Assembly (NCBI GenBank): GCA_026984795.1
Contig: JALSRK010000018.1
Location: forward strand, 1-64,000
Length of the DNA stretch: 64,000 nucleotides
Source of the DNA: Solibacteraceae bacterium
GTDB taxonomy: Bacteria; Acidobacteriota; Terriglobia; Bryobacterales; Bryobacteraceae
Direction of reading: 5' to 3'
The translations under genes and the position numbers were made by a program. Shown here in pieces: positions 9,344 to 48,542 of the stretch. Numbering within the stretch: position 1 is the first letter of the stretch; every line of letters starts with the position of its first letter. Under the pieces are notes generated by a model. The model was not told the DNA's origin. It did no database searches and saw only the letters and a list, made by a program, of their open reading frames with translations.

Positions 9344-9364
9344 TTCTTCGAGGAGAGAGCGTCG

Positions 9365-9547: not shown

Positions 9548-9583
9548 TGGATCGCAACGACGACTGGGACATAGGGAGACGAC

Positions 9584-10033
9584 ATGAATCTGAGTGAACT
9601 TCGCCCGCCTGCCGGGCAGAAGCACAAAAAGAAGCGGGTCGGCCGCGGCATGGGTTCCGGTCGCGGCAAGACCTCCGGACGCGGCCACAAGGGCCAGCAT
9701 TCGATCTCCGGCTTCAGCCGCATGCGCGGCTTCGAAGGCGGCCAGATGCCGATCCACCGCCGCCTGCCCAAGCGCGGATTCACGAACATCTTCCGCAAGC
9801 AGTACGCCATCATCAACGTCGGCCGGCTCGAGAAGCTCGAAGGCGACAACTTCGACCCGGCCCGGCTCGTGGCGATGGGCGTGATAAAAAAGTTAGGGGA
9901 CGGGCTTAAGGTCCTCGGCCATGGAGAGCTGACGCGGAAGCTGACGGTGAAAGCCCACCTCTTTTCCAAGTCGGCCGAGGAAAAGATCAAAGCGGCCGGA
10001 GGCTCGATCGAGAAAATCGAAGGGCGGGCCTGA
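9584..10033 (+). CDS. rplO: 50S ribosomal protein L15
   Basis: 149 residues. The Gly/Arg-rich N-terminal extension ([26 protein letters not shown]) penetrates 23S rRNA. The globular part has [20 protein letters not shown] and the closing [19 protein letters not shown]. It starts [11 protein letters not shown] after a GGGAGACGAC binding site. It is the last ribosomal gene before secY, which follows after 42 bases. Confidence 0.97.
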
Positions 10034-10075
10034 TGACGGGCGCCGCCGGCGCGGCGCCTCCGTAGAGGGCGGATT

Positions 10076-11476
10076 ATGAACAAGTTCTTTGAAGGACTGG
10101 TGAACATGTTCCGGATTCCGGATCTCCGGAACCGGGTCCTGTTCACCTTGGGTATGCTCGCCATTTACCGTCTTGGCGGCCACATCCCTACGCCGGGCAT
10201 CGACGCCGCCAAGCTCGAGCAGTTCTTTTCCCAGAACCAGGGCACCCTGTTCGGCTTCTTCGACCTCTTCTCCGGGGGCATGTTCCGGCGCATGACGATC
10301 TTTGCCCTCGGCATCATGCCCTACATCACGGCGTCCATTATTCTGCAGCTCCTCACCGTCGTCATTCCTACCCTGGAGAAGCTCCAGAAAGAGGGCGAAC
10401 TGGGCCGCCGCAAGATCACCCAGTGGACGCGCTACCTCACCATCGGCCTCTCGATGATGCAGTCGTTCGGCATCGCCGCCGCGCTGCAGGGCTCCCAGGG
10501 CGGATTCGTCGTCAATCCGGGCATGGGTTTCATCCTCATGACCATGCTCACCCTCACCACCGGCACGGCGTTCATCATGTGGCTCGGCGAGCAGATCACC
10601 GACCGTGGCGTCGGCAACGGCATGTCGCTGATCATCTTCGCCGGCATCGTCGTGGGGCTGCCTTCGGCCGCCGTGGAAATCTACACCAACGCCTTCGTCA
10701 CCCGCCAGTGGAACATCATCCAGGTGATCATCATCCTCATCATGATGGTGGCCGTGGTCGGCTTCATCGTGCTGGTCGAGCGGGGCGAGCGGCGCATCCC
10801 GGTCCAGTACGCCAAGCGCGTCGTGGGCCGGCGGATGATGGGCGGCCAGCAGACCCACCTGCCCCTCAAGGTCAACGCCGGCGGCGTGATCCCGGTGATC
10901 TTCGCCTCTTCGCTGCTCGCCTTCCCGCAGACCTTGCGCCAGGTGGCCTGGGTGCGCGACAACCCCTGGATCCGGGGGATGCTCGACTCCATCAGCCAGG
11001 GCGAGCCGCTCTACTACCTGATTTACGTCATCGGCATCATCTTTTTCTGCTTCTTCTACGTGTCGATCATTTTCAACCCCAATGAGGCCGCCGACAACAT
11101 GAGGAAATACGGGGGCTTCGTCCCCGGCATCCGGCCGGGGCGCAACACCGCCGAGTACATGAACCGGATCCTGACCCGGATCACCATGGTCGGCGGACTG
11201 TACCTGGCCATCCTCAGCCTGCTGCCGGAAATCATGATCTCCGGCATCAAGCTCCAGACGCTGCCGCTGGTGGGCAACTTCATCGACAACACCTTCCCGC
11301 GGTGGCTGCTGGACGGCCTCGGGGTGCGTTTCTATTTCGGCGGCACCTCGCTGCTGATCGTCGTGGGGGTCGCCATGGATTTCATCAACCAGATCGAGGC
11401 GCAGATGATCATGCGCCATTACGAAGGGTTTACCCCGCGCTCGGGCCGCATCCGCGGCCGCCGGAGCGTCTTTTGA
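10076..11476 (+). CDS. secY: Protein translocase channel subunit SecY
   Basis: 466 residues with ten predicted membrane helices, the SecYEG pore. Recognisable features are the plug region after TM1 ([11 protein letters not shown]), [20 protein letters not shown] in TM2, and the cytosolic loops with [20 protein letters not shown] and [20 protein letters not shown] that bind SecA and the ribosome. The C-terminus ends RIRGRRSVF. It follows rplO as in the spc operon. Unlike many bacteria, adk does not follow; map does. Confidence 0.97.
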
Positions 11477-33363: not shown

Positions 33364-33690
33364 TCATGTCGGGGCCCCAGAGGCCGGCAGCGTGACGTCG
33401 ATCACCTGGCCGGGGCGGTAGCGGGGGTCGTGAGAGGCGACGATGACGGCGCCGAGGCGAGGGTCGTAGACGGCCAGGGCGGCGGCCGGCGAGCCGTGCA
33501 GTTCGTGTACGGCCATGGCGTAGCGCCAGATGGGCGCCCGGCCTTCGATCACGACGATCCCGCCGCGGGGAATCTCGGGCAGTGGCGGCAACGGCTCGTC
33601 AGGGGTGATGGGGGCCTCGACGCCGATGGAGTAGAAGACGAGTTCCGCCGCTCGCTTGCCGCCAGGGATAACTTCGTTTCTGTCAGACAT
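33364..33690 (-). CDS. csx3: CRISPR ring nuclease Csx3 (Crn3)
   Basis: 108 residues from the ATG at 33690, which overlaps the end of the CARF nuclease gene by 8 bases. The Csx3 core is GGIVVIEGRAPIWRYAMAVH, then LAVYDPRLGAVIVASHDPRY. D76, R78 and H87 in YDPR...SH have the spacing I recall for the catalytic Asp, Arg and His of Archaeoglobus Csx3. H62 or H65 could be the further His. Crn3 enzymes cleave cyclic tetra-adenylate and switch the type III response off. About 40 N-terminal residues, Pro-rich, precede the core. It is last in the operon. Confidence 0.88.
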   Translation of the reverse strand: MSDRNEVIPGGKRAAELVFYSIGVEAPITPDEPLPPLPEIPRGGIVVIEGRAPIWRYAMAVHELHGSPAAALAVYDPRLGAVIVASHDPRYRPGQVIDVTLPASGAPT

Positions 33691-34870
33691 TTCCTGGCTT
33701 TCCAAACAAAAGTCGCTGAAGGAGCTCGTGATCGTCCGGAGCACCGGCGAGTTTCTGGATATCGGGCGTGGTCAAGAATCGGCAGTTGTACAGACTTGCC
33801 CGGTCACGCACTGATGGCTTGATGTTCCCGCCAGGGTCGAGCAGATTCGTGGAGGTTGTGGCCAGGAAAGAACGCACCCGGAGAGCGCGGAACTGGCGCG
33901 TTATGGCTTCGATCTTGTACAGAGCGGCCACGTCCGGGTCGTGTTCCTGACTGCCTGTCTTGCACTCGATCATGTGCAACGCGTATTCCCGCATGAAAGC
34001 GACGTCGAAGTCATTCTCGGCTTTGGATCCTTTCGCCGCCGGGACGATGCCCAGCCGCACGTCCCAGATCCCGATCCGATCTTTGTGCCTGTCGAGCAGG
34101 CCCCACAGCAGCACCTCGAGCCAGCCGCCGGTTAAGAACTGAACGCCGTACCGGTCCAGCCTACCGGTCAGATTGGTCCCTTCGACCTTGAGATTGAAGG
34201 TGCGCCACAGCGTGTTGCCCAGATGCAGATCGGAAACCGGCAAGTCGCCCGGGCGCAACTCCAATCCTTGCTTTCGTCCTTTCGAGCGCCGGTGAGCGTC
34301 AACCTTCAACAGGGCTGTGCCGGGGCTTGTGAGTGCGATCGCCAGGGCGACTGGGAACCATTTCCGAGCCCTCTCCTCGGAGCGCAGGATCTTTTCCGGA
34401 TCTTTGTGTTGTTCGAATCCGTAGCCTCGTAGAAACTCCTCGATGGAGAGCCGGTGGTCTACTATCTCGGTTGTGTTGGTCTCGACGTCGAGAATGCGGT
34501 TGGGCTTTTCGGCGTCGATGTAGATCAGCCGAGCCCCTACCGCTTTGAAAAACTCATAGGCGACGATGGACATCGGTTTGGTGCCGCCGGTGAGATTGAC
34601 GATCCAGTCTCCAGTGGGGTGCTTGCCGAAGGCATTTCGCAGCGACTCCGCAATCGACGCGAAGTCCGAGACGTCTCCGTGGGGGACGACGTCGCAACGT
34701 TCCGTGTAGTCGAGCTTCCCGCACTTCAGGGCGTCGAGGAAGTTCTGCGCCGCGTTGCGCCGTCTCATGCGTTCGGACTCGATGAGCACCAGACGGTCCG
34801 GCTGGAAATGATGAATGGAAAGCAGGTTGGGCACGTGCTGATCGGAAAGAAGACAGCAAAGGACTTTCAT
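33683..34870 (-). CDS. Card1/Can2-like CARF-domain nuclease (DUF1887 type)
   Basis: 395 residues. The N-terminal CARF half begins MKVLCCLLSDQHVPNLLSIH and carries the ligand-pocket motif NLTGGTKPMS at 92-101. The C-terminal half is a PD-(D/E)xK nuclease: GGWLE (248-252), NDFDVAF with D289, and ECKTG with E302 and K304. Family members are activated by cyclic tetra-adenylate and cut single-stranded nucleic acid; this is known for Card1 and Can2. Its ATG overlaps the cmr6 stop (ATGA), and csx3 overlaps its end, so all three are coupled. Confidence 0.88.
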   Translation of the reverse strand: MKVLCCLLSDQHVPNLLSIHHFQPDRLVLIESERMRRRNAAQNFLDALKCGKLDYTERCDVVPHGDVSDFASIAESLRNAFGKHPTGDWIVNLTGGTKPMSIVAYEFFKAVGARLIYIDAEKPNRILDVETNTTEIVDHRLSIEEFLRGYGFEQHKDPEKILRSEERARKWFPVALAIALTSPGTALLKVDAHRRSKGRKQGLELRPGDLPVSDLHLGNTLWRTFNLKVEGTNLTGRLDRYGVQFLTGGWLEVLLWGLLDRHKDRIGIWDVRLGIVPAAKGSKAENDFDVAFMREYALHMIECKTGSQEHDPDVAALYKIEAITRQFRALRVRSFLATTSTNLLDPGGNIKPSVRDRASLYNCRFLTTPDIQKLAGAPDDHELLQRLLFGKPGNV

Positions 34871-35994
34871 CGTGACTTCCCGCTCTGTTTCCCCCGTTTC
34901 GGTTCCCGCAGTGTCAACAAGTAGGTGGTTCCCGCGACGTTGGCCACCCATACGTCGATGCTGGCGTTCATCTCTACTTCTGGCGGAGCTTCTCCAGCAA
35001 AGTGTCCGATGATGCCGTCGTCGGCGCGGAAACGTGGTTTACCCTTTTTGGAATCCTCGATACGAGTGACCTTGATCTTCTCGCCCGGCCGGTGGCATGG
35101 CTTGGGGTGGGCGGGCGCGGAGGGGCCCGAATGTCCGGCGCCAGCGCCGTGCCGGGAACTCGGCCGGACCAGCCGGCCGTAGCCGCTCGAGGTCTTGCCG
35201 CCGGCGCCCCAGTCGCGTAGGGCCTCTTGGAGGAGATCCAACGCGAGCTGGCTCCAGTTGTCGCCCTCCGGACCGCCCGCATCGCAGGAGACGGCGACGA
35301 GGAAGCGCCCGGTGACCGAGAGAAAGGCGACGGGGTTGGGGTCGTCGAAGTCGGTGGGCGGGACGATGTCTTTCTTCCCGCCGGACCGCTCGCGGGTGTT
35401 GCCGCTGTAATAGTCCCCGTGGTGCGGCGTCATGACATCGAGCACGAGGCCGGAGTCGTTGCCGGCGAGCGACTCCGGCGTGATCCAGGCGTCGTGAAAG
35501 ACGATATGGCCGGCGTCTTCCGTCGTTCCGAAGATCGTCTTGAAGAATTCCCCCGCGTCTTTTTTGAACCTCCCGTCGGCCTCACCCCAGACGCGGTCAC
35601 AGTAGTGGGCGGTGAGGCCTTTCAAGGCGGAACCGGGGACGATCGGGACGCCGTAGGTGTGGTGCAGCCTGATGCCCGTCTCGAGGACGCTCTCGGCGCC
35701 GAGGCCGACGACCAGCCGGCCGTTGACGGCGAGGACGGCGCTGGAGCACGGCTGGGGCAAGGTGGCTTTCCAACGCGCGTAGGCGAGACGGTACACGTCG
35801 AGAAGTGTAGTGGACCGCTGGGCCTTCTGGGCCGCCCTAAGAAGTTCCCGTCTGAACTCCTTTTCACTGTCGTGTTCGATCAGGCACCGAGCTAATAGCA
35901 AGCCAGGGTGGGAATAGTCGTCCGGATAAGGACGGCGATCACGATGCGGCATGAAGATGTCCCGCAATACGCTTCGGCAGGCCTGCGCGTTCAT
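34867..35994 (-). CDS. cmr6: Type III-B effector subunit Cmr6, with extra C-terminal domain
   Basis: 375 residues. The RAMP (Cas7-like) core includes LVVGLGAESVLETGIRLHHT, YGVPIVPGSALKGLTAHYCD, HIVFHDAWITP, VLDVMTPHHGDYYSGN and the Gly-rich WGAGGKTSSGYGRLV (262-276). Cmr6 caps the filament near the crRNA 3' end. A Pro/Gly/His-rich linker (about 278-303) then leads to 60 or so extra residues, KIKVTRIEDSKKGKPRFRAD and onward, that look like a small beta domain. The start overlaps the cmr5 stop (ATGA). Confidence 0.92.
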   Translation of the reverse strand: MNAQACRSVLRDIFMPHRDRRPYPDDYSHPGLLLARCLIEHDSEKEFRRELLRAAQKAQRSTTLLDVYRLAYARWKATLPQPCSSAVLAVNGRLVVGLGAESVLETGIRLHHTYGVPIVPGSALKGLTAHYCDRVWGEADGRFKKDAGEFFKTIFGTTEDAGHIVFHDAWITPESLAGNDSGLVLDVMTPHHGDYYSGNTRERSGGKKDIVPPTDFDDPNPVAFLSVTGRFLVAVSCDAGGPEGDNWSQLALDLLQEALRDWGAGGKTSSGYGRLVRPSSRHGAGAGHSGPSAPAHPKPCHRPGEKIKVTRIEDSKKGKPRFRADDGIIGHFAGEAPPEVEMNASIDVWVANVAGTTYLLTLREPKRGKQSGKSR

Positions 35995-36386
35995 CCCGCC
36001 TCCTTCGCGGTGTCGTCCAGCAGCGCCTCGGCGTAGCGCTTCAGCCACCCGGCGGCGGCCAGGGCGTCGCGGCTGAGGCGGAGATACGCGACAATGTCCT
36101 CTTTCCGGCTCCGCTTGACGAGTTCGTCCCGGTCGAAGCCGAGCACGGTCGCGAGATCGTCCAGAAACTGCAGCGTATGGCCCCGCTTGTTCTCTTTCTC
36201 TTTCCCTTTGGCTTCGGCGAAGGCGAGGGCCTGTACCAGCCCGCAGGTGTGGATCAGAGCGGGGAAGCTCTTGGCGAACGAGGCGTAGTCGTCCTTCTTC
36301 GGATAGTTCCGCCGCTCGCTGACGGCCTGGAACGCCTTCTCGGCCCACCGCTGGGTGCGGGTACGGATGGTTCCCGTTTCAGCCAT
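35991..36386 (-). CDS. cmr5: Type III-B small subunit Cmr5 (Cas11)
   Basis: 131 residues, all helical and basic, the expected size. It begins TGTIRTRTQRWAEKAFQAVS, the common Cmr5 N-terminus, and contains SFAKSFPALIHTCGLVQALA with the family's TCGLxQxLAF pattern. Repeated Cmr5 subunits form the minor filament along the target RNA. GAACCG precedes the ATG. It overlaps the end of cmr4 by 8 bases and the start of cmr6 by 4. Confidence 0.93.
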   Translation of the reverse strand: MAETGTIRTRTQRWAEKAFQAVSERRNYPKKDDYASFAKSFPALIHTCGLVQALAFAEAKGKEKENKRGHTLQFLDDLATVLGFDRDELVKRSRKEDIVAYLRLSRDALAAAGWLKRYAEALLDDTAKEAG

Positions 36387-37290
36387 CGGTTCCCTCCTTG
36401 GTGAAGACCAGCCGGACGCGTCCCTTGCCGGTGGTGGCGTCGCCGCCCATTTGCAGCGTCGTGTCCCGGCAGAAACGGTCCATAAGCTCGGCCGGCTGGA
36501 TGCCGTTGTTACCGAAGACCCGGTCGCACCAGACGATGCCGGCCAGCAGGGTTTCGGCCGGCAGGGCCTCCTCGTACCAGAGGGCCCCGGAAGCGACCGT
36601 CTTGGTTTTGTCCTCGAGGCGCACGCGGGCGTTGACTTCGGTGCCGGTTTCCGAGAGGAAGTTGAAGGCGTTGTCCGGCAGGACCGTGAAACGCTCGAGG
36701 AACGCCTTCTGCCAGGTGTCGTTGCCGGGGAAGACCCACTCGGCGAGGCGGGAGGCCCAGGCGGCGGCTCCGGACGAGGCCTCTGTTTTGAAGTCCAGGT
36801 CCTCGAGGTAGAGCCGATTGTCGTGCGCCAGGACGGAGGCCGTGCCATCGGGCAGCAGGGCGCCGTCTTCGCGGACGGAAAGGTCCGCCGCGAGGTCGGC
36901 GACGCCGGCGCCGGCCATCTCGAAGTCGCGGCGGAGCCGGCGCAGGACGGCCGGCGACGCGCACCAGGCGAAGGTGCCGTAGAGGCTGCGGACCGGCAGG
37001 CAGACGATCCGGGCGTCGGCGAAGACGAGGGAGCCGGAGTTGGCCTTTCTGTCTTCTGCTTCGTCGCTCCTGCCGAAAGCCGCTACGATCCACGGATCGG
37101 TTTTCCGCTTGTCCGGCGTAGCCTCGTACTTGTCCGCCAGCACGCCCTTCACCGCCGAGCCGGGAACCAGCGGCCAGCCGGTGACCTTTTCGCGCATGAT
37201 CGGCAGATCGACGTAGCCGGCGCCGCGGCCGGAGCCGACGTGGAGGGGCGAAATGACGTGGATCCAATAGATTCGTGTGTTCTGCGCCAT
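36379..37290 (-). CDS. cmr4: Type III-B backbone nuclease subunit Cmr4 (Cas7)
   Basis: 303 residues from the ATG at 37290, preceded by GGAAAGGAG. The RAMP start is IHVISPLHVGSGRGAGYVDL, then PIMREKVTGWPLVPGSAVKG and VLADKY. D28 in GYVDLPI corresponds to the Asp that cuts target RNA every six bases in characterised Cmr4. The C-terminal Gly-rich loop is QMGGDATTGKGRVRLVF. It lies 46 bases after cmr3, the only real gap in the operon, which may allow separate translation of this multi-copy subunit. Confidence 0.95.
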   Translation of the reverse strand: MAQNTRIYWIHVISPLHVGSGRGAGYVDLPIMREKVTGWPLVPGSAVKGVLADKYEATPDKRKTDPWIVAAFGRSDEAEDRKANSGSLVFADARIVCLPVRSLYGTFAWCASPAVLRRLRRDFEMAGAGVADLAADLSVREDGALLPDGTASVLAHDNRLYLEDLDFKTEASSGAAAWASRLAEWVFPGNDTWQKAFLERFTVLPDNAFNFLSETGTEVNARVRLEDKTKTVASGALWYEEALPAETLLAGIVWCDRVFGNNGIQPAELMDRFCRDTTLQMGGDATTGKGRVRLVFTKEGTDG

Positions 37291-37336
37291 CAGGACGCTC
37301 TCCTTTCCGGGTCGGAATCGGACAAAGCTCGTTTCA

Positions 37337-38542
37337 TCACTGCGAATCCCATACTCCCCAGACGGCGAGACCGAAGCCCTCGCGGTTGTGCTGGCCGTCA
37401 TCGCAGACCGGGGCGAGCCACTTTCCGGCCAGTTCGGCGACGTCGCCGCCGATGACCTCGAAGAAATAGACCCCGCCGGCCGGCACGAGCCGCCGGACGG
37501 GCTTGGGGCCGAAAGAGCTCTTCTCGAGCGACCAGCCGGAGACGGGTTGCCAACGGCCGATGGAGACGCCTGCGAGGCGAACGCGGACACTCGTGCCGGG
37601 GACCGTCCCGGCGAAGCCCTCCGGAGTTTCCTCGAGCCAGCCGGGCCGCCAGCCCGCCGAGAAGACCGCCGGGGTGGCGAGCACCAGGCGGACTTTTTTG
37701 GTCCGGGCGAGCTTTTCTTTCACCCGTTCCGGGCACCCCCAGCCGGCGGCCGCTCCGTTGCCGGTCTCCCAGTAGGCGAGGCGCCGCTCGCCGCCCATCG
37801 GGTGGAGGTGGGCAAGCCCTTTCAGGTGTTCTTCGAAGGCCGAAGGATCGTCGATACGGGCCGCCAGGCGGACGAGGCTGAGTTCGGGGCCGCCGGCGAG
37901 CCGGAGGTGGTAGTCGAGTCCGGCGGTCATGAAGAGCTGGGACTCGGCGGCCGCGCCGGTATCCGCGTCGATGCGGACGTGCCAGCGCGCCTCGGTCTCC
38001 GGCGCAGGCAGAAATCCTTCGGCGCACCACGCGGTCTTGCCGTTCTTCGGGCCGGCCTGGACGGCGTCGAACGACCACTCGGGCGTCCCGCTGAGCCATT
38101 CCGACAGCCGTTCCGTGGAGAAGAACCGGGGCACGTCGGCCGGCTTGAAATCCTCGTCCTCGTCAGCGAGGGGGAGCATCACGGGCCGCAGGGAACCGTG
38201 CGGAAGGTCGCAGCCCTCACCGCCGCCGGGCTCGGCCGGGCGGGCGGCGAAGCAGCGGCCGTCGCCGGGCCGGACCGCCAGGTCGGCGGGTACGGGGAAG
38301 TAGAGCTGTCCTTCGAGCAGAGGCAACGGACCGGCCACCGCCAACCTTTTCAGCTCTTTGACAGTTTCCGAGTCGAACTTTCCTCCGGCGAGCTTGCCGA
38401 CGAGAGTGCGGAGCGAGCCGGCCAGCACCGACGGGTAGGGCCAGTCGAGGGAGCGCATCCGCTCGCTCGAGCCAACGCCGAAGGGACGGCCGTCGCGGGC
38501 GATCAAGGGGTCGCGGGGCGTGATGGTGAGCATCAGGCTCAT
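37337..38542 (-). CDS. cmr3: Type III-B subunit Cmr3 (Cas5)
   Basis: 401 residues. It opens with MLTITPRDPLIARDGRPFGV and then MRSLDWPYPSVLAGSLRTLV, the diagnostic Cmr3/Cas5 N-terminus. Further motifs are LVLATPAVFSAGWRPGWL and VYFFEVIGGD. Cmr3 binds the 5' tag of the crRNA together with Cmr2. Its ATG overlaps the cmr2 stop (ATGA). Another Met three codons downstream is an alternative start. Confidence 0.94.
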   Translation of the reverse strand: MSLMLTITPRDPLIARDGRPFGVGSSERMRSLDWPYPSVLAGSLRTLVGKLAGGKFDSETVKELKRLAVAGPLPLLEGQLYFPVPADLAVRPGDGRCFAARPAEPGGGEGCDLPHGSLRPVMLPLADEDEDFKPADVPRFFSTERLSEWLSGTPEWSFDAVQAGPKNGKTAWCAEGFLPAPETEARWHVRIDADTGAAAESQLFMTAGLDYHLRLAGGPELSLVRLAARIDDPSAFEEHLKGLAHLHPMGGERRLAYWETGNGAAAGWGCPERVKEKLARTKKVRLVLATPAVFSAGWRPGWLEETPEGFAGTVPGTSVRVRLAGVSIGRWQPVSGWSLEKSSFGPKPVRRLVPAGGVYFFEVIGGDVAELAGKWLAPVCDDGQHNREGFGLAVWGVWDSQ

Positions 38543-40401
38543 GAGGACACCTCCTTGGCGGGAGCGGCCGCTCGGCCCGCCTCATCGGCCTGGTGCACGG
38601 CCTCGCCGATGTGCTGGGCGACGAGCATCTCATTGGCGAGGCGGTGGAGATCGCCGGCGCTTCTGGCGGCCGCCAGCCGTTTCAGGACCCAGGTCTTGTC
38701 AGCGTTTTCCAGCCGGGTCTCTTTCTGCGCGAGCAGGCGGTCCAGGCCGGCCGCGATGGCTGCCGGGAGCGTGGCCGCGGTTTGCCAGGAGGCGTAGTGG
38801 CGGGCCAGTTGGCGGATGTCGTAAGGAAGCTTGTTGGGCAGCGAGCCCTTCCGGAACAAGCCGGCCCACCTGGCGAGGCGGCGCTCGATGGAGCCGTCGT
38901 CATCTTGCCACCGCTCGCGGATGCCGAAGGGCGCGCCGCCGCGGGGGTGGACGAAGACGGCCAGCGCGTTGCGCTCGGCGTGGAGGCCTGAGCCGCCTGT
39001 TTCCGGAGTCGCGGTCTTGGCGGCCTTTTCCGCTTCGCGGGCGTAGTTGCGGAGATCCTCCAGAGGATCCATGAAGTGGCCGATGGCGAGGCCGACCGAG
39101 AAGGTCGGTGGACCGTCGGCGATTTCGAAAGAATCAAGCGACTTGCAGAACTTGTCGCGGAGACCGCGGGCGCACTCGAGACACTTGTCCAGCGGCAGGA
39201 GAGCGAGGACATCGTCGCCGCCGGCGTAGATGCAGACGCCGTTGTGTTCTCGGACGATTCCGGCAGCCTCTTTGGCGAAGCCGGCGAGCCGGCGCGAGAA
39301 CTCGCGGTGCCGCTCGGGCGAATCGAGGGCGGAGATGAGCTTGCCCATGCGGTCGCCGTCGGCGACGAGGAGAGCGACGTAGGGATAGGGATCGCCGAAA
39401 CCGAGGCCGCCGCGATTCTTCGGGCGAGTCAGACGGTCGAGGGCTTCTCTGAGCTGGTCCAGCTCGCGGACGTCACGGCCGGCTTCCTTGGCGAGGCTGG
39501 GGTAGCGGTCGCGGTAGACCGCGGTGCCGTCGAAGGGGAAGGCGGCGTAGATTGGGAACTTCCGCTCGTCGATCTTGCCGATCACGTCCCCACCGAGGCG
39601 CTCGCACTGTTCTTTGAGGGCCTCGAGCGCCGCCGCGGCTTCACGGTCGTCTTTGGCACGCCCGGCGACGCCCCGGAGCCAGGGGTCGGCCGCGATGCGG
39701 GCCACGGAGACGAACGCCCGCCGGCCGTGGGCCAGGCGTTTCGTCAGGCCGACGGCGTCGAGCTGTTCGCCCTCCTGCAGGCGGAGGCGGGCGCGGAGGC
39801 CGGAGCCAGCCCGATCCGGGTCGGCCAGCACCGTTTCCCGGCGGCCGTCGAGGGAAGATTTGGGCAGGCGCCGTTTGGCCGGGTCACCCAAGGGTTGGGC
39901 GAAATCGCGGCAGCGCTTGCGGGCGTCGAGCAGCCTCATGAGGCGCTTGCGGGCGGCGGGATAGCTACCGTCGAGGGGCGCCCAGGCGGCGTAGAACTCG
40001 ATGACGTCGTCGAGCTGGAGGTTCCAGATCTCGTCGCGGACGAGCCTCCCTGCCTCTTTCCTGGCCTGCCCGGCGAACTCTCGCCAGCGCTCTTGAACCG
40101 CTTCGCGGGCGGTCCCGGCGAGATCCTTCGGGGAGGCGCCGTCGGGGAGCCGGGCGACGACGACGTTGGCGACGGTGAGTTCCGGATCTTCGCGCTCGGG
40201 CGTGGGCTCGAGTTCTTCAGGCTTTTCCGGGGCAGGGAAGATCAGGGTTTCAAGGCTGGAGCCGTCAGCGATGGCCTTGGCGGCGGCCTTGCTGAGCTCG
40301 GACAGAAGAAAGGAGCCGAACCAGAGGTCGCGGGTGCGCCGGGCGGCGGAGATGAACTCCTGGACAGGACCGATGGAGAGGGCGAGTAGATGTCCGGCCA
40401 T
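38539..40401 (-). CDS. cmr2: Type III-B large subunit Cmr2/Cas10 with GGDD cyclase motif
   Basis: 620 residues. It opens directly at the palm region: LLALSIGPVQEFISAARRTR, DLWFGSFLLSELSKAA, the Cmr2 signature, with no N-terminal HD nuclease domain. Palm 1 has LLVADGDRMGKLI. Palm 2 has VCIYAGGDDVLALLPLD, GGDD at residues 394-397. The C-terminus is helical. Cas10 of this kind makes cyclic oligoadenylates from ATP once target RNA is bound. It should therefore signal but not cut DNA by an HD site. Its ATG shares one base with the cmr1 stop (TGATG). Confidence 0.95.
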   Translation of the reverse strand: MAGHLLALSIGPVQEFISAARRTRDLWFGSFLLSELSKAAAKAIADGSSLETLIFPAPEKPEELEPTPEREDPELTVANVVVARLPDGASPKDLAGTAREAVQERWREFAGQARKEAGRLVRDEIWNLQLDDVIEFYAAWAPLDGSYPAARKRLMRLLDARKRCRDFAQPLGDPAKRRLPKSSLDGRRETVLADPDRAGSGLRARLRLQEGEQLDAVGLTKRLAHGRRAFVSVARIAADPWLRGVAGRAKDDREAAAALEALKEQCERLGGDVIGKIDERKFPIYAAFPFDGTAVYRDRYPSLAKEAGRDVRELDQLREALDRLTRPKNRGGLGFGDPYPYVALLVADGDRMGKLISALDSPERHREFSRRLAGFAKEAAGIVREHNGVCIYAGGDDVLALLPLDKCLECARGLRDKFCKSLDSFEIADGPPTFSVGLAIGHFMDPLEDLRNYAREAEKAAKTATPETGGSGLHAERNALAVFVHPRGGAPFGIRERWQDDDGSIERRLARWAGLFRKGSLPNKLPYDIRQLARHYASWQTAATLPAAIAAGLDRLLAQKETRLENADKTWVLKRLAAARSAGDLHRLANEMLVAQHIGEAVHQADEAGRAAAPAKEVSS

Positions 40402-41753
40402 CAGAGGACCTCCTCGAAGCCGTTTTCCGGTTTCTTAGCGAAGGCGATAAAGGCGTCAACGGCATTGTCGTGCCCGTCCATGGGCGAGCCGGAATAGTTT
40501 GCGAGGTGAGAGCCGGCGATCTCGCCGGGACCGAAGCGGCGCAGGCTCTTGTCGCCTTGCCGAAGCTCTGCGCCATCGGGCGGCGGCGTGCGCAACCGCA
40601 GGATCAGCGGGACAGCGGCGTTGGGAGAGATTACCCAAGGTTTCAGGATCAAGGGGCTGCCCATCCTTTGGGCCGCTTCCCCGTTGACAACGGGATAAAC
40701 CTCCGTATCCGGTGGGTCGCCGCTGCGCTCATCCTTGAAGTGGAAAACGATAGGGGCTCCAAAAAGGACCCGCGGAACGCCGTCAAGGTGATGCTTGAAT
40801 GCACTATGAATCGGGGCGCGAGCTAGGGTGGTTTTCCGGATAGTCTCCGGCTCCGGCCAGCGGGAGCGGCCGGGGCGGTTCGGACTACGTCCTGGGTTTC
40901 GCCCGACTCCCGGGCCTTGCCGGAATCGCTGGAGGACGTCCATGGCTGCGTTCCACGCCGCCAGCGGGTCGCGTCCCGGTTTCCCGACGAGGATGGTTTC
41001 GAGCAACATCGGCCACGGATTGGACTGTGATGCGGCAGCGGGAACGTCAGGAAAGGTGGTTCGGAGCCACTTCTTCAGAGACTGAGGATCGGATTCCCGG
41101 GGGGCGAAATCAGCGCAGTAAAGGCTGCCGCAGCCGCGGCGGGTGCGGGCTCCGACGCCGCCGAAGTTCAGCCAGGCGCCGGCCGCGCGCCGGACGTCGT
41201 CACGGCATTCCGGCGGATAACGGAGCGTGAGCCGGAACGAGAGCCCGACAACCATGTCTGCCGGCTCCTCCTCCGGCGGGGCGGACTGCTTGTCTTTATC
41301 TTTTGGAGGTTTTCCCTGGAACGGAAACAGAGCGTAGGGCAGGGCCGTACCGCGGAACCGATCCTCCCATCTGAGCTGGTGGCCGCCTTTTCCTCCCCGG
41401 GCGCGCGGATTCCAAGAATACTTCGCGCACGGGACTCGCTTGCCGGGTTTGACCAGTTCGACGGCGACAAAGACCCGGCTTTGCTGGTCCGTGCTGCCCC
41501 AGATCAAGATCTCGCGGCGCCGGAGCCCCTCGGCACTGTTGCACGCCGCCCCTCGCGTCGCTCGCCACCAGAAGCGGAGGTGGCCGCGGATGGAAGAGGG
41601 CCGGATCAGGGTGACCGGGTCGGGGCGGCCTGCCTCGACCCCGCCGCCGAACAGCGGGGTGACGACCTCGACGGTGCAGGTCAGGGTCTCGTAGTCTTTC
41701 CAGGGATTGGCTCCCTGGGGGCGTTCGGGGCACTTGACGATCGATCGCGGCAC
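40401..41753 (-). CDS. cmr1: Type III-B subunit Cmr1 (Cas7-like)
   Basis: 450 residues. The Cmr1 start is DYETLTCTVEVVTPLFGGGV, EAGRPDPVTLIRPSSIRGHL and RFWWRATRG. A second RAMP half follows, with VGLSFRLTLRYPPECRDDVR and GGVGARTRRGCGSLYCADF. Cmr1 caps the 3' end of the complex. The start is GTG at 41753 with AAGGAGAAG 8 bases before it. It is the first gene of the operon. Confidence 0.94.
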   Translation of the reverse strand: MPRSIVKCPERPQGANPWKDYETLTCTVEVVTPLFGGGVEAGRPDPVTLIRPSSIRGHLRFWWRATRGAACNSAEGLRRREILIWGSTDQQSRVFVAVELVKPGKRVPCAKYSWNPRARGGKGGHQLRWEDRFRGTALPYALFPFQGKPPKDKDKQSAPPEEEPADMVVGLSFRLTLRYPPECRDDVRRAAGAWLNFGGVGARTRRGCGSLYCADFAPRESDPQSLKKWLRTTFPDVPAAASQSNPWPMLLETILVGKPGRDPLAAWNAAMDVLQRFRQGPGVGRNPGRSPNRPGRSRWPEPETIRKTTLARAPIHSAFKHHLDGVPRVLFGAPIVFHFKDERSGDPPDTEVYPVVNGEAAQRMGSPLILKPWVISPNAAVPLILRLRTPPPDGAELRQGDKSLRRFGPGEIAGSHLANYSGSPMDGHDNAVDAFIAFAKKPENGFEEVL

Positions 41754-43093: not shown

Positions 43094-43537
43094 ATGGCGC
43101 AGTTGGGACTGACGGTGCTCCGTGTGGTCGTGGGCCTGGTGTTCGTCGCCCACGGCTGGCGCAAGGTGATGGTGGGCTTCGACCAGGTTTCGCAGTCGTT
43201 CGCCGGCCTGGGCATTCCGGCCCCGCTGGCGGCGGCGGTGCTGGCGATGCTGGCCGAGCTGGTGGGTGGAGCCCTGCTGATCATCGGGCTGAAGACGCGT
43301 CTGGCGGCGATACCGCCGGCCATCGTGATGGTGGTGGCGACGGTGGTGGCGCACCTGCCGCACGGCTTCTTCCTGCCGAAGGGCTACGAGTACACGCTGG
43401 TGCTGCTGGCGGCGCTGGTGACGCTGATCTTGGCTGGACCGGGCCCATACTCGGTGGATGAGATTCTGCGGCGCTGGAGGGAGAAGGGCGGTAAAGCGGA
43501 GCCCTCCCCGCCGGCGGATGCGGAGCCGGGTTCGTAA
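43094..43537 (+). CDS. DoxX-family membrane protein
   Basis: 147 residues with four membrane helices: LTVLRVVVGLVFVAHGWRKV, LAAAVLAMLAELVGGALLII, LAAIPPAIVMVVATVVAHLP and TLVLLAALVTLILAGPGPYS. The HGWRK at the end of TM1 and GF..P.GYEY before TM4 are DoxX features. The C-terminal tail is charged and Pro-rich. GGGGAGGA precedes the ATG. DoxX proteins are small integral membrane proteins, some linked to redox stress. Being behind a MarR gene suggests inducible expression. Confidence 0.88.
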   Translation: MAQLGLTVLRVVVGLVFVAHGWRKVMVGFDQVSQSFAGLGIPAPLAAAVLAMLAELVGGALLIIGLKTRLAAIPPAIVMVVATVVAHLPHGFFLPKGYEYTLVLLAALVTLILAGPGPYSVDEILRRWREKGGKAEPSPPADAEPGS

Positions 43538-43617
43538 CGGGGCGGCGCGGCGCTTGAAGCCGGCCAGGGGGAAAGGGGCGGTTTCGTGCCCGGGGGAGGA
43601 CGAGAGGCCGGCTGGAG

Positions 43618-44592
43618 CTACAGGGAGCGGTAGAGTTCGGACTCCATCAGCGACCGGCAGAAATACTCTCCCGAGAGCCAATGCTTGGGCATGGCGCGCA
43701 GATACTCGTGCGCTTCGCGCAGGGACTCGAGATCGCCCGCCTTGGCGGCCGCTTCCTCCAGCGAGGCGAAGTAGAGGGGATAGTCCCGGCCCAGGTACTC
43801 CTCGACCGCCGGCAGGCGGTTCACCAGCACCGGCGTGTTCCTGGCGATGCACTCCAGGATAGTGTTGACGGCGACGGCGGAATACAGGTGCAGGAAGACG
43901 ATGTTTTCCGAGAGCAGCCGGTCGTAGCCGCGCGGGGACTGCCGGGGAAGGATCTCGACGTCGCGCCACTCGTCGAGGGGCGGCGCACCCAGCATGAGGC
44001 GCTGGCGTTCGACGGCGGCGAAGAAGCGCGCCTGGCCGCGGGGATCGGGTACGGGTACGAGCAGCGTCTTCCGCCAGGGCACTTCCGGAAGCTGCCAGAT
44101 GGAGCAGTGGCGCCGGAGCATGGAGCCCACCTGGATCAGGCGCGGCGTGGGGTTCTCCAGGAAACGGCGGAAGCGGAAACGGAGCGAGGGGGCGGCGGTG
44201 GGGTGCTTCAGGGCGAGAACGGGTACGGGGACTCTAGGCTGCAGCCAGTCCCGCATGTGGGCCGAGAGGGTGACGAGTCCGCGGCAATAGGGCAGGCTTT
44301 CCTGCCAGACGCGCAGGCGGAAGAGGTAGCGGGGCGACTTGCGGTAGTCGCACCAGCGGGGGATGTCGTAGGGGGCGTGGACGAATCCGACCCAAGGGCG
44401 CCGGTAGGGGATCTCATGGCCGGCGAGCGCTTCCCGGAGCCGCCGGCAGAAGTTCTTTTCGATCATGGTGTCGAGCAGGACGCCAGCGCCGTTTTTGGAG
44501 AGCGCGGGCGCCAGAGCGGCGGTGGCGTAAGCCCAGCCGCTGCGGTGGTGGGGGTAGACGATTCTGCGCTGCAGGACGAATTTGCCCGCCAT
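43618..44592 (-). CDS. Glycosyltransferase-like protein (GT-B, GT4-like)
   Basis: 324 residues. The N-terminal half has VGFVHAPYDIPRWCDYRKSP, then GLVTLSAHMRDWLQPRVPVP as at the domain boundary of GT-B enzymes. The C-terminal half has PRLIQVGSMLRR and LHLYSAVAVNTILECIARNT followed by PVLVNRLPAVEEYLG. This last stretch matches the nucleotide-sugar site of GT4-type enzymes, with the Glu in ILECIARNTP. No signal peptide is seen. Donor and acceptor are unknown. It is divergent from the HprK-like gene. Confidence 0.65.
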   Translation of the reverse strand: MAGKFVLQRRIVYPHHRSGWAYATAALAPALSKNGAGVLLDTMIEKNFCRRLREALAGHEIPYRRPWVGFVHAPYDIPRWCDYRKSPRYLFRLRVWQESLPYCRGLVTLSAHMRDWLQPRVPVPVLALKHPTAAPSLRFRFRRFLENPTPRLIQVGSMLRRHCSIWQLPEVPWRKTLLVPVPDPRGQARFFAAVERQRLMLGAPPLDEWRDVEILPRQSPRGYDRLLSENIVFLHLYSAVAVNTILECIARNTPVLVNRLPAVEEYLGRDYPLYFASLEEAAAKAGDLESLREAHEYLRAMPKHWLSGEYFCRSLMESELYRSL

Positions 44593-44620
44593 GGAGGTCC
44601 AGCCCGACGGACCAGATGAA

Positions 44621-44646
44621 AGTATATTAACATATCAATATCTGTA
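44621..44646. promoter_or_regulatory. AT-rich divergent promoter region
   Basis: AGTATATTAACATATCAATA begins a run of 26 bases that stands out from its GC-rich surroundings, in the 54-base gap between two divergent genes. On the - strand, TATACT (44626-44621) is a 5 of 6 -10 element, 29 bases before the glycosyltransferase ATG. A weak TTACAG lies 15 bases upstream of it. For the + strand gene the run reaches the ATG itself, with no binding site. Confidence 0.4.
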
Positions 44647-45708
44647 ATGGGCGTCTCCACCGATCCCGCGGCTGCCGGGCATGGGATTGCGGCTTCCTCG
44701 AGGCTTGAACCCCGGCCCTGGTTCGACGTCTACGGCTATCGGTTCACCGTGACGAGCACGGCGGACGGGCCACTGAAGGGGCTGCTGCAGGATTTCGGGT
44801 TCTTTCGCTTGGGGGAAGGCGGCCCGGCGGTCAGCATCGAACTCGAGGAGGCCGAGCCGGACTATTCCATCGTGCCGCCGTGCGACGCCTCGATCTACAC
44901 GCCGCGCAACGTCGTCTATCGCTACGGCGGCCGCCGGTATATCGACTACGGGGGGCGGGGTCTCGGCATCTGGGATAGGGTGGCGGGCCGGTTCCGGGTG
45001 GTGAGCCGCGACCTCAACCTGCTCTACGAGGCTGCGTACCTGTTCTTGCTCTCGCAGATCGGGGCCCATCTGGACCGGCGCGGGATCCACCGGCTGCACG
45101 CGTTGGGCGTCGAGCTAGACGGGCGGGCCATCCTGGTGCTGCTGCCGGCCGGCGGCGGCAAGAGCACAGTGTGCACGGCGTTGATGGAGCGGCCGGAGAT
45201 CCGGTTGTTGTCCGACGACTCGCCCCTGATCGACCGGCGGGGCCGGGTGCTGGCGTTTCCGCTGCATCTGGGCTTGAGGCGCGGCCAGGAGCACCGGGTT
45301 CCGGCGCGCTACCGGCGCGTCGTCGAGCGGATGGAGTTCGGCCCGAAGACTCTGGTGAGTCTGGATTACTACCGCGGCCGGGTGGCTGCGGCGGCCGAGC
45401 CGGGGCTGGTGCTGTTGGGCAGGCGGACGACGGCGCCGGAGTGCCGGCTGGAACGGGCCCGGGCAGGAGCGGCTCTGCGGGCCATGATTGCCAACTGCGT
45501 GGTGGGGATGGGCCTCTACCACGGTCTCGAGTTCCTGCTGCAGAGCAGCGCCTGGGAGCTGGCATCCAAGGCCGGCCTCGGACTGTCGCGGCTGCGGAAC
45601 GCGGTGGCTCTGTTGCAGCGGGCGGAAACCTACGTGCTCCACATGGCGCGGGAGGTGGAGCCGACGGCGGCGGCAATCGTGGAACTGGCGTACGAACTGT
45701 TCCGGTGA
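44647..45708 (+). CDS. HPr kinase/phosphorylase-like P-loop kinase
   Basis: 353 residues. The N-terminal third has strands and conserved aromatics (DVYGYRFTVTS, YRYGGRRYIDYGGRGLGIWD). The kinase domain has HRLHALGVELDGRAILVLLP, then Walker A AGGGKST with K172, and LLSDDSPLID with D190-D191, as in HprK. These HprK relatives lack the HPr substrate context and occur with peptide or polysaccharide clusters; some phosphorylate peptide products. No Shine-Dalgarno is visible at the ATG. The end overlaps the next start (GTGA). Confidence 0.75.
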   Translation: MGVSTDPAAAGHGIAASSRLEPRPWFDVYGYRFTVTSTADGPLKGLLQDFGFFRLGEGGPAVSIELEEAEPDYSIVPPCDASIYTPRNVVYRYGGRRYIDYGGRGLGIWDRVAGRFRVVSRDLNLLYEAAYLFLLSQIGAHLDRRGIHRLHALGVELDGRAILVLLPAGGGKSTVCTALMERPEIRLLSDDSPLIDRRGRVLAFPLHLGLRRGQEHRVPARYRRVVERMEFGPKTLVSLDYYRGRVAAAAEPGLVLLGRRTTAPECRLERARAGAALRAMIANCVVGMGLYHGLEFLLQSSAWELASKAGLGLSRLRNAVALLQRAETYVLHMAREVEPTAAAIVELAYELFR

Positions 45709-46967
45709 AGAGCGGGGGCGGGCATCGGGCGGCGCTTCCGGCGGCTGCAGCGCCGGCGGAGGCAGTGGGGCGAGGGGGGTTCGCGAACGCCGCGTATCTC
45801 GCCCTGGCGCGGCTGGCGGGAAGGCTCCTGGCGGCCCGTGCAGGCGTACGCACGGTGTTCGTGCGGCGGAGCCTGGCGGCCGGCGAGATCGACTTCGGCC
45901 GGAGCGATATCGACTTCGGCCTGCTGCTCGAGCCGCCGGCGCCTGGCGAGGTGGACCGCCTGGTTGCGCTCCTGCGCACATACCGTCGCTTGCGCTGCTT
46001 CCGGCCGGTAATCGGGGAATGCCTTGTCTATACCCAGGACGAATACCGGACGTACTACCTTCTCGATCCTTACCGGGCCTCGATCGACCGGCGGGCCGCC
46101 ATCCGGCTGTACGGGCCGGACGTTCCGCGGATTCGGGTCCCCGTGCCGCCCGCAGCGGCCATCCGGCGGCAAGTGCATTGGTTCGACCGGTACCTGATGA
46201 ACGCCCTCCACCGGCGCAACCGGCGGAACATGCGCAAATTCCTCCTGGAGAGCTGGAACGCGCACGCGGTGGCGGCGGAACGGTTGCGGGAGCCGTACGT
46301 GACGCGCCGGGAGACCGAGGCGGCGTGGCGCGCGAGCGAGGGCGGGCGTCTCTTCGAGGGCCGGATGGATCCGCTGAGGGCCTTCGCGGTGATTTGCGAA
46401 CTGGCCGGCCGGACGCACCGGCGGTTCCGCAAGCCCCTCGACAGGCTGCGGGAGCCCCGGATCTTCCGCGCGAGGCCGCCGCTGGGGGTCCGGGAGCGGA
46501 CCTTCGTGCTGATCCCGACGCCGGATACGCCCCTGCCGCGGCAAGCGCGGCGGGCGGACGCCTTCGTGGGGACGCCGGAGGTGCTGGATCTCTTCGTCCG
46601 GTATGCCGAGCCGTTCCTCTATCCGGCCGTCGAGCCGGTGCTGGGGGATCTCGGCGCGGAGCCGCCGCCGTGGCGGGCTTACGCGTGGGCCTGCCTGAGA
46701 CGGGCGGCGGGGCCGAAGCTGCGCGAGCCGGGTTTCGCGGGATCGCCGGTGGAAGGCGTGCTGGCGGGCATGGAACTGGTGCGGAGATCCCTGCCGAGCC
46801 TGCGGCGGAAGGAGCCGCCTCCGGCAGGGCCGCCGCCGGGCATCGCCGGCTCCCCGGGGCTCGAGGAGTACTATCGGGATCACTACCCCCGGCTGCTCGC
46901 CGAAGCTCGTGAGGCGAGTGAAGAACTGCTGGAGCTGTTGGGCGTTTCGGTTCCCGGGCAGCGCTGA
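45705..46967 (+). CDS. Nucleotidyltransferase-fold protein, partner of HprK-like kinase
   Basis: 420 residues from GTG at 45705, which overlaps the kinase stop by four bases. The nucleotidyltransferase motif is FVRRSLAAGEIDFGRSDIDF, with S...GxSDxD and a later GECLVYTQDEYRTYYLLDPY strand. The middle is helical and Arg-rich (NALHRRNRRNMRKFLLE). The C-terminus (EEYYRDHYPRLLAEAREASE) is helical. Substrate unknown. The same kinase plus nucleotidyltransferase pairing is known next to lasso-peptide genes, but no lasso precursor or cyclase is seen here. Confidence 0.65.
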   Translation: MKSGGGHRAALPAAAAPAEAVGRGGFANAAYLALARLAGRLLAARAGVRTVFVRRSLAAGEIDFGRSDIDFGLLLEPPAPGEVDRLVALLRTYRRLRCFRPVIGECLVYTQDEYRTYYLLDPYRASIDRRAAIRLYGPDVPRIRVPVPPAAAIRRQVHWFDRYLMNALHRRNRRNMRKFLLESWNAHAVAAERLREPYVTRRETEAAWRASEGGRLFEGRMDPLRAFAVICELAGRTHRRFRKPLDRLREPRIFRARPPLGVRERTFVLIPTPDTPLPRQARRADAFVGTPEVLDLFVRYAEPFLYPAVEPVLGDLGAEPPPWRAYAWACLRRAAGPKLREPGFAGSPVEGVLAGMELVRRSLPSLRRKEPPPAGPPPGIAGSPGLEEYYRDHYPRLLAEAREASEELLELLGVSVPGQR

Positions 46968-47021
46968 CCGGCCGAGGCGGGGCTGGCGGATGGGGCCGGG
47001 TTGTGGTGGAGTGGTAACGCT

Positions 47022-48542
47022 ATGCGCGCAGTTTGGATGATCGTTTCCTTCTGCCTCGCCGCGGCGCTCGTTCGCGGCGAAGACCTGCGGACGCCGAAGC
47101 CGGGGCCGGAGCCCCGGATCAACGGTCCGAAGATCTACGGCGCTCGGCCGGGGCGTCCGTTCCTCTACCGGATACCGGCCACCGGGGAGCGTCCGATGAA
47201 GTTCTCGGCGGAGGGGCTGCCGGAAGGGCTGTCGTTGGACGAGGACACGGGCATCATCCGGGGCCGGACGCCCGGCGAGCGAGGCGAGTACCGGTTGACG
47301 TTGCGGGCCGAGAACCGCCACGGGGCCGATGAGCGCGCCTTCAAAATCGTCGCCGGCGACACGCTGGCGCTGACGCCGCCGATGGGCTGGAACCACTGGT
47401 ACACGCACTACTACCGGATCACCGACGGCCACATCCGCCGGGCGGCGAAGGCGATGATCGATTCCGGCATGGCCGACTACGGCTATCAGTACGTCAACAT
47501 CGACGACTGCTGGATGGTGAAGCCCGGCTCGGACGATCCGATGATCGGCGGGCCGGCGCGCAATCCCGACGGCACGATCCGCCCGAACCGCCACTTCCCG
47601 GACATGAAGGCGCTTACCGCCTACATCCACTCCCTGGGGCTGAAGACCGGCATCTACACTTCCCCGGGTCCGCTTACCTGCCAGCGGTACGAGGGGGCGT
47701 GGCGGCACGAGGAGATCGACGCGCGCACCTTCGCCGAATGGGGCTTCGATTTCCTGAAGTACGACTGGTGCTCCTACGGCCGGGTGAAGAAGCCCGAGAC
47801 GCTCGCCGACCACCAGGAGCCCTACCGGAAGATGGGGGCGATCCTGGCCCGGCTGGACCGCGACATCGTCTTCAACCTGTGCCAGTACGGCCGAGCCGAG
47901 GTCTGGAAATGGGGCCGCGAGGTGGGCGGCAACTGCTGGCGCACCACGGGCGACCTGGGGCTGGCCCAGGGCGACCGGCTTCCGGGTTTCTACCACATCG
48001 GTTTGCGGAACGCGCGGCTCTGGGAGTACGCGGGGCCGGGGGGCTGGAACGATCCGGACTACATCCTGATCGGCTACTACGGCGAGGCCCGGGGAATGAA
48101 GGAACCCCGGAAGACGCCGCTGACGGCGGCCGAGCAGTACAGCTACATGTCGATGTGGGCGCTGATGGCGGCTCCGCTGTTCTTCTCCGGCGACATGGAG
48201 CGGTTGGACGAGTTCACCCTGAACGTTCTGTGCAACGCCGAGGTGATCGAGGTGAACCAGGACGCGCTGGGCAAGCAGGCGCGGATCGTGCGGGAGAGCG
48301 GCGACGAGCTGATCCTGGCCAAGCCGCTCGAGGACGGCTCGCTGGCGGTGGGGCTGTTCAATCTGTCCGAGGGGGAGCGGGAAATCCGCGTCTCCTGGGA
48401 GGAGCTCGGGCTGAGCGGGCCGCAGGCGGCGCGGGACCTGTGGCGGCAGCGCGACCTGGGGCAGGTGCGGGGTTCCTACGCGGCGACGTTGCCGCGGCAC
48501 GACGTGGCGCTGGTGCGGTTGAGGCCGGCGAAGAGCGAGTGA
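47022..48542 (+). CDS. Secreted GH27-type alpha-galactosidase
   Basis: 506 residues from the ATG at 47022. The signal peptide is MRAVWMIVSFCLAAALVRG. Residues ~25-110 are an Ig-like putative-binding domain (FSAEGLPEGLSLDEDTGIIR, GRTPGERGEYRL). The GH27 barrel begins TPPMGWNHWYTHYY, with DYGYQYVNIDDCWM and FLKYDWCSYG (the nucleophile Asp in YDWC) and GGWNDPDYILIGY. A C-terminal beta domain closes it. It would release terminal alpha-galactose, or a related sugar, outside the inner membrane. Its stop is the first half of a palindrome. Confidence 0.88.
   Translation: MRAVWMIVSFCLAAALVRGEDLRTPKPGPEPRINGPKIYGARPGRPFLYRIPATGERPMKFSAEGLPEGLSLDEDTGIIRGRTPGERGEYRLTLRAENRHGADERAFKIVAGDTLALTPPMGWNHWYTHYYRITDGHIRRAAKAMIDSGMADYGYQYVNIDDCWMVKPGSDDPMIGGPARNPDGTIRPNRHFPDMKALTAYIHSLGLKTGIYTSPGPLTCQRYEGAWRHEEIDARTFAEWGFDFLKYDWCSYGRVKKPETLADHQEPYRKMGAILARLDRDIVFNLCQYGRAEVWKWGREVGGNCWRTTGDLGLAQGDRLPGFYHIGLRNARLWEYAGPGGWNDPDYILIGYYGEARGMKEPRKTPLTAAEQYSYMSMWALMAAPLFFSGDMERLDEFTLNVLCNAEVIEVNQDALGKQARIVRESGDELILAKPLEDGSLAVGLFNLSEGEREIRVSWEELGLSGPQAARDLWRQRDLGQVRGSYAATLPRHDVALVRLRPAKSE

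Follow-up and report, generated by a model that had tools for sequence, protein, structure and literature searches.

The DNA analysed here (the window) is a stretch of 64,000 nucleotides from a Solibacteraceae bacterium. Between positions 43,618 and 46,967 it holds a glycosyltransferase-like gene (GT) that diverges from a pair of genes encoding a kinase (KIN) and a nucleotidyltransferase (NT). We propose, at a probability of a little under one half (about 0.48), that the three genes are a small cassette for glycoconjugate tailoring rather than the remains of a peptide setting. The proposal is built on the gene layout, the conservation and predicted folds of KIN and NT, their co-occurrence, the glycosyltransferases found nearby, and proteins in which NT is fused to a GT2 glycosyltransferase domain; from this we infer a glycan or glycolipid substrate, the sequence in which the enzymes act, what individual residues do and which donor NT uses.

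The cassette might work as follows. GT would add a sugar to an acceptor, which could be a lipid, a glycan or some other small molecule; KIN would then phosphorylate a hydroxyl of the glycoconjugate at the expense of ATP, H151 and D190-D191 lying by the metal and K172 belonging to the P-loop; and NT, through its SDxD metal site, would act at the phosphate or at a neighbouring hydroxyl. The outcome of this last step could be nucleotidyl transfer, or the phosphate could end up bearing a sugar, the result reported for pseudomycoidin's PsmN. Pseudomycoidin is, by analogy, the nearest tested precedent for a kinase working with such a nucleotidyltransferase: PsmK acts as the kinase, the phosphorylated residue comes to carry one or two hexoses through PsmN, and nucleotidylation is not excluded (PMC9266682). 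The likeness lies in the pairing of the two enzymes and in the hexoses on a phosphorylated residue, PsmN being compared by its description there; the substrate differs, being a lasso peptide. A literature search of limited depth turned up no published cassette of kinase, nucleotidyltransferase and glycosyltransferase, no paper for "HprK-related kinase", and none joining HPr kinase, phosphoenolpyruvate carboxykinase (PEPCK) and lasso peptide.

The three genes and their products

KIN (353 residues) is encoded on the plus strand at 44,647–45,708 and NT (420 residues) on the same strand at 45,705–46,967, so that they overlap by four bases, GTGA, at 45,705–45,708. The mechanical open reading frame of NT begins at 45,171, within KIN; the GTG at 45,705 was adopted as its start because of the KIN overlap and the homologues, and the identical overlap is seen in four relatives (L012, L043, L044 and L046). 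GT (324 residues) lies on the minus strand at 43,618–44,592. The 54 bases between GT and KIN (44,593–44,646), taken as a divergent promoter region, have an A+T content of 57%, against 33% for the window, and equally A+T-rich 54-mers make up 0.26% of the window. A scan of 43,500–47,100 found one sigma-70-like site (mean in shuffles, 0.2), located in this gap on the minus strand and directed towards GT; none directed towards KIN was found in the gap. The first-pass annotation, which had described a four-base overlap in the pair and a glycosyltransferase-like gene across an AT-rich 54-base promoter, is confirmed in these respects.

The kinase core of KIN (45,091–45,225) comprises RLHALG with H151, the P-loop LPAGGGKST with K172, and LLSDDSP with D190-D191, together a His-Lys-Asp-Asp set. 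In an alignment of the window protein with 35 relatives, H151, K172, T174 and D191 are invariant (36/36), as are R149, E128, R228, K234, E295 and R315, while D190 is Asp in 26 rows and Glu in 10; the kinase residues that the annotation had singled out (K172, D190-D191) are thus conserved, with D/E at position 190. No Pfam family was found in KIN at E ≤ 1. Against the equivalog TIGR04352 (HprK_rel_A) it scored 30.7 bits where the cut-off is 200, and 29 of the 36 members touched that profile at E ≤ 0.01 (best E 4.3e-12). Profile-profile comparison (hhalign) with four HprK-related kinases of the same order aligned 240 columns (23–278) with 97% probability and E 1.5e-11, covering both the N-terminal and the kinase domain, the two domains that also make up the HprK-related kinases of TIGR04352 and TIGR04355 (HprK_rel_B). 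On sequence grounds KIN represents one branch within the HprK-related kinases, in the HprK/PEPCK group; a kinase classification places HprK and PEPCK in one group (PMC1079889).

The predicted model of KIN (pLDDT 88.4, pTM 0.85) has the PEPCK fold across most of the chain (best Foldseek E 2.5e-9), residues 16–353 superposing on the ATP-dependent PEPCK 1j3b with Z 17.8 and a root-mean-square deviation (rmsd) of 4.5 over 286 aligned residues. When the profiles of KIN and of these bacteria's own PEPCKs are compared, the overall match is weak (probability 27.5%, E 6.5e-4), but H151, K172 and D190-D191 align with the MHCSAN His, the Lys of the P-loop and the Asp pair of GDDEHG, respectively; in PEPCK this His and the second Asp bind metal. 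KIN differs in size (353 residues, against just over 500 in solved ATP-type chains), shares 12% identity and has no match to PF01293, the ATP-dependent PEPCK family. As the N-terminal domain is common to other HprK-related kinases, the PEPCK-like fold is not put forward as a peculiarity of the KIN family.

HPr kinase/phosphorylase (HprK) shares the fold of the P-loop domain with the KIN model (Z about 12–13 over 130–136 residues), the match being essentially limited to its C-terminal domain. We give almost no credence to a regulatory role for KIN as an HPr(Ser)-type protein kinase: searched by sequence against solved structures, the KIN-family profile touches HprK at E 0.018–0.061, but guanylate kinase scores alike (E 0.016), and that search gave nothing clear for KIN, NT or GT; weak matches to Pfam Hpr_kinase_C occur in two of the 36 members (best E 0.0031), whereas KIN itself reaches 11.6 bits against the cut-off of 240 for TIGR00679, the profile of true HPr kinase/phosphorylase. 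Nor was Hpr_kinase_C found in the window genome at E 1e-5. The true PEPCK of this genome is encoded on a contig other than that of KIN (G000:C56, 744 bits), and on these two grounds KIN was rejected as the genome's own PEPCK or HprK. A well-characterised housekeeping kinase, as which the annotation had allowed that KIN might be unmasked, it therefore does not appear to be: its link to PEPCK is one of fold.

NT is a Pol-beta-type nucleotidyltransferase with a conserved motif, GRSDIDF, predicted to bind metal through its DxD. S67, D68 and D70 are present in all 15 close members, bearing out the motif given in the first-pass annotation, and so are G60 and E61; the SDxD is constant in 14 divergent members too. 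Two candidates for a third catalytic carboxylate, E105 (8/15) and D121 (12/15), are not constant. No Pfam family was found in NT at E ≤ 1. The predicted model (pLDDT 89.6, pTM 0.89) is nearest in fold to the aminoglycoside nucleotidyltransferases ANT(3'')(9), AadA, AAD(9) and ANT(4'), which share the DxD motif: residues 25–242 superpose on 7uy4 with Z 10.8 and rmsd 4.0 over 203 aligned residues. The resemblance is a distant one, with 12% identity, a weak best Foldseek E of 2.4e-3 (ANT-type) and an additional C-terminal part of about 180 residues in NT.

GT appears to be a glycosyltransferase of GT-B type, judged by matches below cut-off to Pfam Glyco_transf_4 (E 7e-4, 20 bits; cut-off 28.5) and Glyco_trans_1_2 (E 3e-3, 18.2 bits; cut-off 25) and to NCBIfam SenB (E 0.004, far under its cut-off). 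By sequence it also touches SenB-type structures at E 0.058–0.13, and homologues occupy the same position in six other KIN loci.

Co-occurrence of kinase, nucleotidyltransferase and glycosyltransferases

Within the order, KIN was found in 20 of 257 genomes and NT in 15, all 15 of them KIN-positive; GT was found in 12, seven of them KIN-positive. These searches scored first-look candidates only, 7–8 per genome, so that absences are soft. The KIN-positive genomes G123, G249 and G201 gave no A2 match, yet contain a second NT type, described below. In a draw of 396 genomes from the phylum, KIN was found in three, the window genome included. A single-sequence scan of the genome_contigs collection found no KIN relative, although an alignment query finds 68 loci there, 43 of which (L057–L099) match over at least 185 residues; many of these records are probably the same contigs as in the order-wide set.

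A tree of the window protein and 35 of the 43 loci, rooted for drawing only and including four long branches, has 33 rows in 11 bacterial groups by record title and three, the window included, in none. One group (support 94/92, just under the star threshold) unites the window with eight other rows. Seven of these nine have an intact GT and NT, L063 has decayed ones, and L076 has NT with no glycosyltransferase found. L076 is titled Planctomycetaceae and its KIN lies inside an Acidobacteriota group; this may reflect transfer or a misbinned contig.

The intact arrangement of a divergent GT and a KIN-NT pair was seen in seven of the 23 KIN loci scanned for it, the window among them. In a decaying cassette (L041/L063; G178:C54, around 9037–11203) KIN is intact, with GT and NT fragmented. 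Another locus (L016; G077:C44, 6326–10437) has an internal stop in the KIN frame and, by eye, a transporter-like gene between KIN and NT; the second NT of that genome, on C134, likewise gives a match containing a stop. At eight loci that lack this GT, KIN has a member of a different glycosyltransferase family nearby, and the two members tested match UDPGT and are EryCIII-like.

Within 5 kb of KIN, NT was found at 31 of the 43 loci, a glycosyltransferase of one of four types at 35, and both at 25. Among the 25 loci with 5 kb available on both sides the counts were 20 for NT and 22 for a glycosyltransferase. NT was not found in 31 control loci (477 kb), made up of 25 other HprK-like loci, five chosen for GT and one lasso-like locus. 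The longer, second type of NT, at six KIN loci, is related to the window type (hhalign E 1.3e-13); several NT matches at distant loci are weak (E 1e-5 to 1e-8). Neighbouring proteins were tallied for 25 of the 43 loci (102 of 127 near and 85 of 93 farther proteins), after removal of NT genes and hence of any NT-GT2 fusions; those omitted from the near set are mainly short proteins, with five longer ones (L059:3268, L061:8871, L063:11769, L073:491 and L073:6542). Pfam GT2 accounts for 12/102 neighbours within three genes of KIN against 6/85 at 6–9 genes, and group-1 glycosyltransferases for 11/102, being absent at 6–9 genes among the 25 families listed. The annotation had left it possible that the pair occurs only in unrelated contexts; the neighbourhood survey instead found a shared partner.

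The most direct link of NT to glycosyl transfer is given by three loci, from records titled Deltaproteobacteria (L074), Myxococcales (L077) and Planctomycetota (L094), in which a single open frame encodes an NT domain followed by a GT2 domain. The respective E values are 1.4e-8, 4e-15 and 2e-26 for the NT parts, and 1.9e-23, 4.3e-24 and 1.6e-26 for the GT2 parts.

These fusions also bear on the strongest rival to the tailoring of a finished glycoconjugate, an activated-building-block route in which KIN phosphorylates a small polyol or sugar, NT activates it with a nucleoside triphosphate, and GT or a nearby transferase delivers it to an acceptor. Kinase, nucleotidyltransferase and transferase follow one another in this order in classical routes (LicA/LicC/LicD, HldE), and Tam41, which we take to be a Pol-beta-type enzyme acting on a phosphate monoester, turns up as a weak structural match to NT (Z 6.2, 107 aligned). 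The fold of NT is nearest, however, to the aminoglycoside enzymes (Z 10.8), which act on hydroxyls, whereas the usual sugar-1-phosphate nucleotidyltransferases have another fold; and the fusions fit an acceptor step at least as well. We consider this route rather unlikely.

The same fold could suggest a detoxification cassette, in which an antibiotic is inactivated by phosphorylation, nucleotidylation and glycosylation, all known transfers on aminoglycosides and macrolides. ANT(3'')(9), AadA and ANT(4') are the nearest folds to NT, the alternative glycosyltransferase resembles EryCIII and UDPGT, and the trio is a stand-alone unit whose surroundings vary. But distant relatives sit among glycosyltransferases, the NT-GT2 fusions are unlike the drug-modifying enzymes familiar to us, and the plasmid collection gave no match, which together make such a role highly improbable.

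Several observations count against glycoconjugate tailoring. The cassette of the window lies outside any polysaccharide locus, its neighbours being alpha-galactosidase, TonB-dependent receptor, MarR and DoxX genes and a type III-B CRISPR locus (clustered regularly interspaced short palindromic repeats). NT was not found within 5 kb in 12 of the 43 KIN loci, five of them with full flanks, and four of the 20 places where NT occurs in the order are away from KIN (G077:C134, G068:C14, G068:C9 and G273:C318). Among 24 control windows, each of 11 kb, 10 contained a glycosyltransferase, and the sequences behind the GT2 and GT4 profiles came from the KIN loci themselves; because of this origin of the profiles, and because the controls contain glycan genes, the NT count is stronger than the glycosyltransferase count. 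GT falls below every Pfam cut-off and is present without KIN in five of its 12 genomes. Domains of ATP-binding cassette (ABC) transporters, which an export locus would be expected to contain, show no enrichment near KIN relative to more distant positions (ABC_tran 4/102 against 6/85; ABC2_membrane 3/102 against 2/85), and radical S-adenosylmethionine (SAM) genes, often met in peptide modification, make up 5/102 near neighbours against 2/85 farther ones.

ABC exporters were seen by eye in L078, L081 and L083; as they are not enriched in the counts, they were not used as a sign of polysaccharide export. In the five KIN-negative genomes (L155–L159) GT adjoins unrelated-looking genes, and therefore probably has a use of its own. 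Distant HprK-like kinases (L103, L104, L106, L112, L114 and L123) share stretches of up to 20 kb with glycosyltransferases, so that the glycan link may extend beyond the KIN family.

Relation to peptide-modifying kinases

The first-pass annotation saw the pair as standing without its usual peptide cluster, and suggested a polysaccharide or a peptide encoded elsewhere as its substrate. Its observation that no PqqD or precursor gene lies nearby was correct: there is no precursor-sized gap among GT, KIN and NT, and in the whole window genome PqqD gives one match of 12.8 bits against a cut-off of 23.4, and none at E 0.01. A lasso- or PqqD-linked cluster, recognised by PqqD and a precursor beside the kinase, is thus not present at the window cassette. 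PF14907 (NTP_transf_5), which we take to be the nucleotidyltransferase family of PqqD-linked HprK systems and presumably that of PsmN-like enzymes, was not found in the genome at E 0.01. Beside KIN in the window no lasso cyclase or leader peptidase gene was seen, a genome-wide search for these not having been made.

That KIN and NT nevertheless tailor a ribosomal peptide whose precursor is encoded elsewhere, in the manner of lasso kinases and PsmN, we regard as improbable, though several observations are compatible with it. The profile match of KIN over both domains (E 1.5e-11) includes a kinase from a locus that by eye is lasso-like. The His-Lys-Asp-Asp set is also described for the lasso-peptide kinases PadeK, ThcoK and PsmK (PMC9266682), a likeness drawn from their descriptions. 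Radical SAM genes occur near some KIN loci, as counted above; of the order's 20 KIN-positive genomes, 11 contain PqqD and 11 contain PF14907; and at one KIN locus a PqqD gene lies 13 kb from the kinase gene. Against it stand the lack in the window genome of PF14907 and of PqqD above cut-off, the gapless cassette, and the 20 KIN-positive genomes, in which no KIN contig has a PqqD match closer than 10 kb to the kinase gene, several contigs being short. NT, moreover, has no detectable homology to PF14907 (hhalign E 0.29 and 0.21 against six members) and none to PsmN's presumed family on that account; with no Pfam match either, its assignment to NTP_transf_5 was rejected.

A lasso or PqqD cluster that has lost some of its parts was rejected likewise, given the window genome's lack of PqqD above cut-off and of PF14907 and the 20 KIN-positive genomes, which have no match to either within 10 kb of KIN. 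The KIN family stands apart from the other HprK-related kinases and the lasso kinases in its partners, GT and another NT family, with no PqqD adjoining KIN. The annotation was therefore partly right: the gene identities, the promoter and the hint at a polysaccharide hold; the premise of a missing peptide cluster does not, since relatives of KIN are accompanied by glycosyltransferases and by their own NT family, and a peptide encoded elsewhere finds no support in the window genome as far as PqqD and PF14907 go.

Some loci combine features of both kinds. The locus with the PqqD gene (L013; G033:C58, 18.4 kb) carries KIN, the longer NT and PqqD at 1190–1384, and by eye also two radical SAM proteins and several glycosyltransferases, a transposase-like gene lying between. 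In G004 a cluster that looks lasso-like by eye (L014; C6, 4848–9168), with an HprK-like kinase and sulfotransferase-like and asparagine-synthetase-like genes, lies about 17 kb from a GT-KIN-NT cassette, and this genome seems to hold both kinds of kinase. A small SPASM-like protein, alike by eye, recurs near KIN (L085, 7532–8567; L093, 8200–8451; L056, 13,339–13,599), in L085 adjoining a radical SAM protein.

Genomic surroundings and wider meaning

The window lies on contig C18 of a 5.23-Mb assembly that is 96.8% complete and contains a single KIN. Upstream of the cassette are the DoxX and MarR genes and the type III-B CRISPR locus, whose effector genes (minus strand, 33,683–41,753) encode Cmr1, Cas10/Cmr2, Cmr3, Cmr6 and a Csx1-type CARF protein by PADLOC; downstream are the alpha-galactosidase and the TonB-dependent receptor. 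A phage or defence function for the cassette was rejected, as none of its three proteins matches a PHROGs or PADLOC family at E ≤ 0.01 and the plasmid collection yielded no relatives of KIN.

HprK-related kinases outside the phosphotransferase system are known mainly from peptide natural products. The present survey describes one branch of them, spread over 11 bacterial groups by record title, that is accompanied by glycosyltransferases and by its own NT family, with NT-GT2 fusions. It is conceivable, if doubtful, that this branch represents widespread, undescribed PEPCK-fold glycan kinases which, with their dedicated NT family, decorate surface glycans or glycolipids with nucleotidyl or glycosyl groups linked through phosphate; we know of no enzyme set for such glycan capping. 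If they do act on glycans, bacterial glycan chemistry would gain a step of phosphorylation plus conjugation, and the isolated three-gene form found in the window would be a compact unit with which to test that role.

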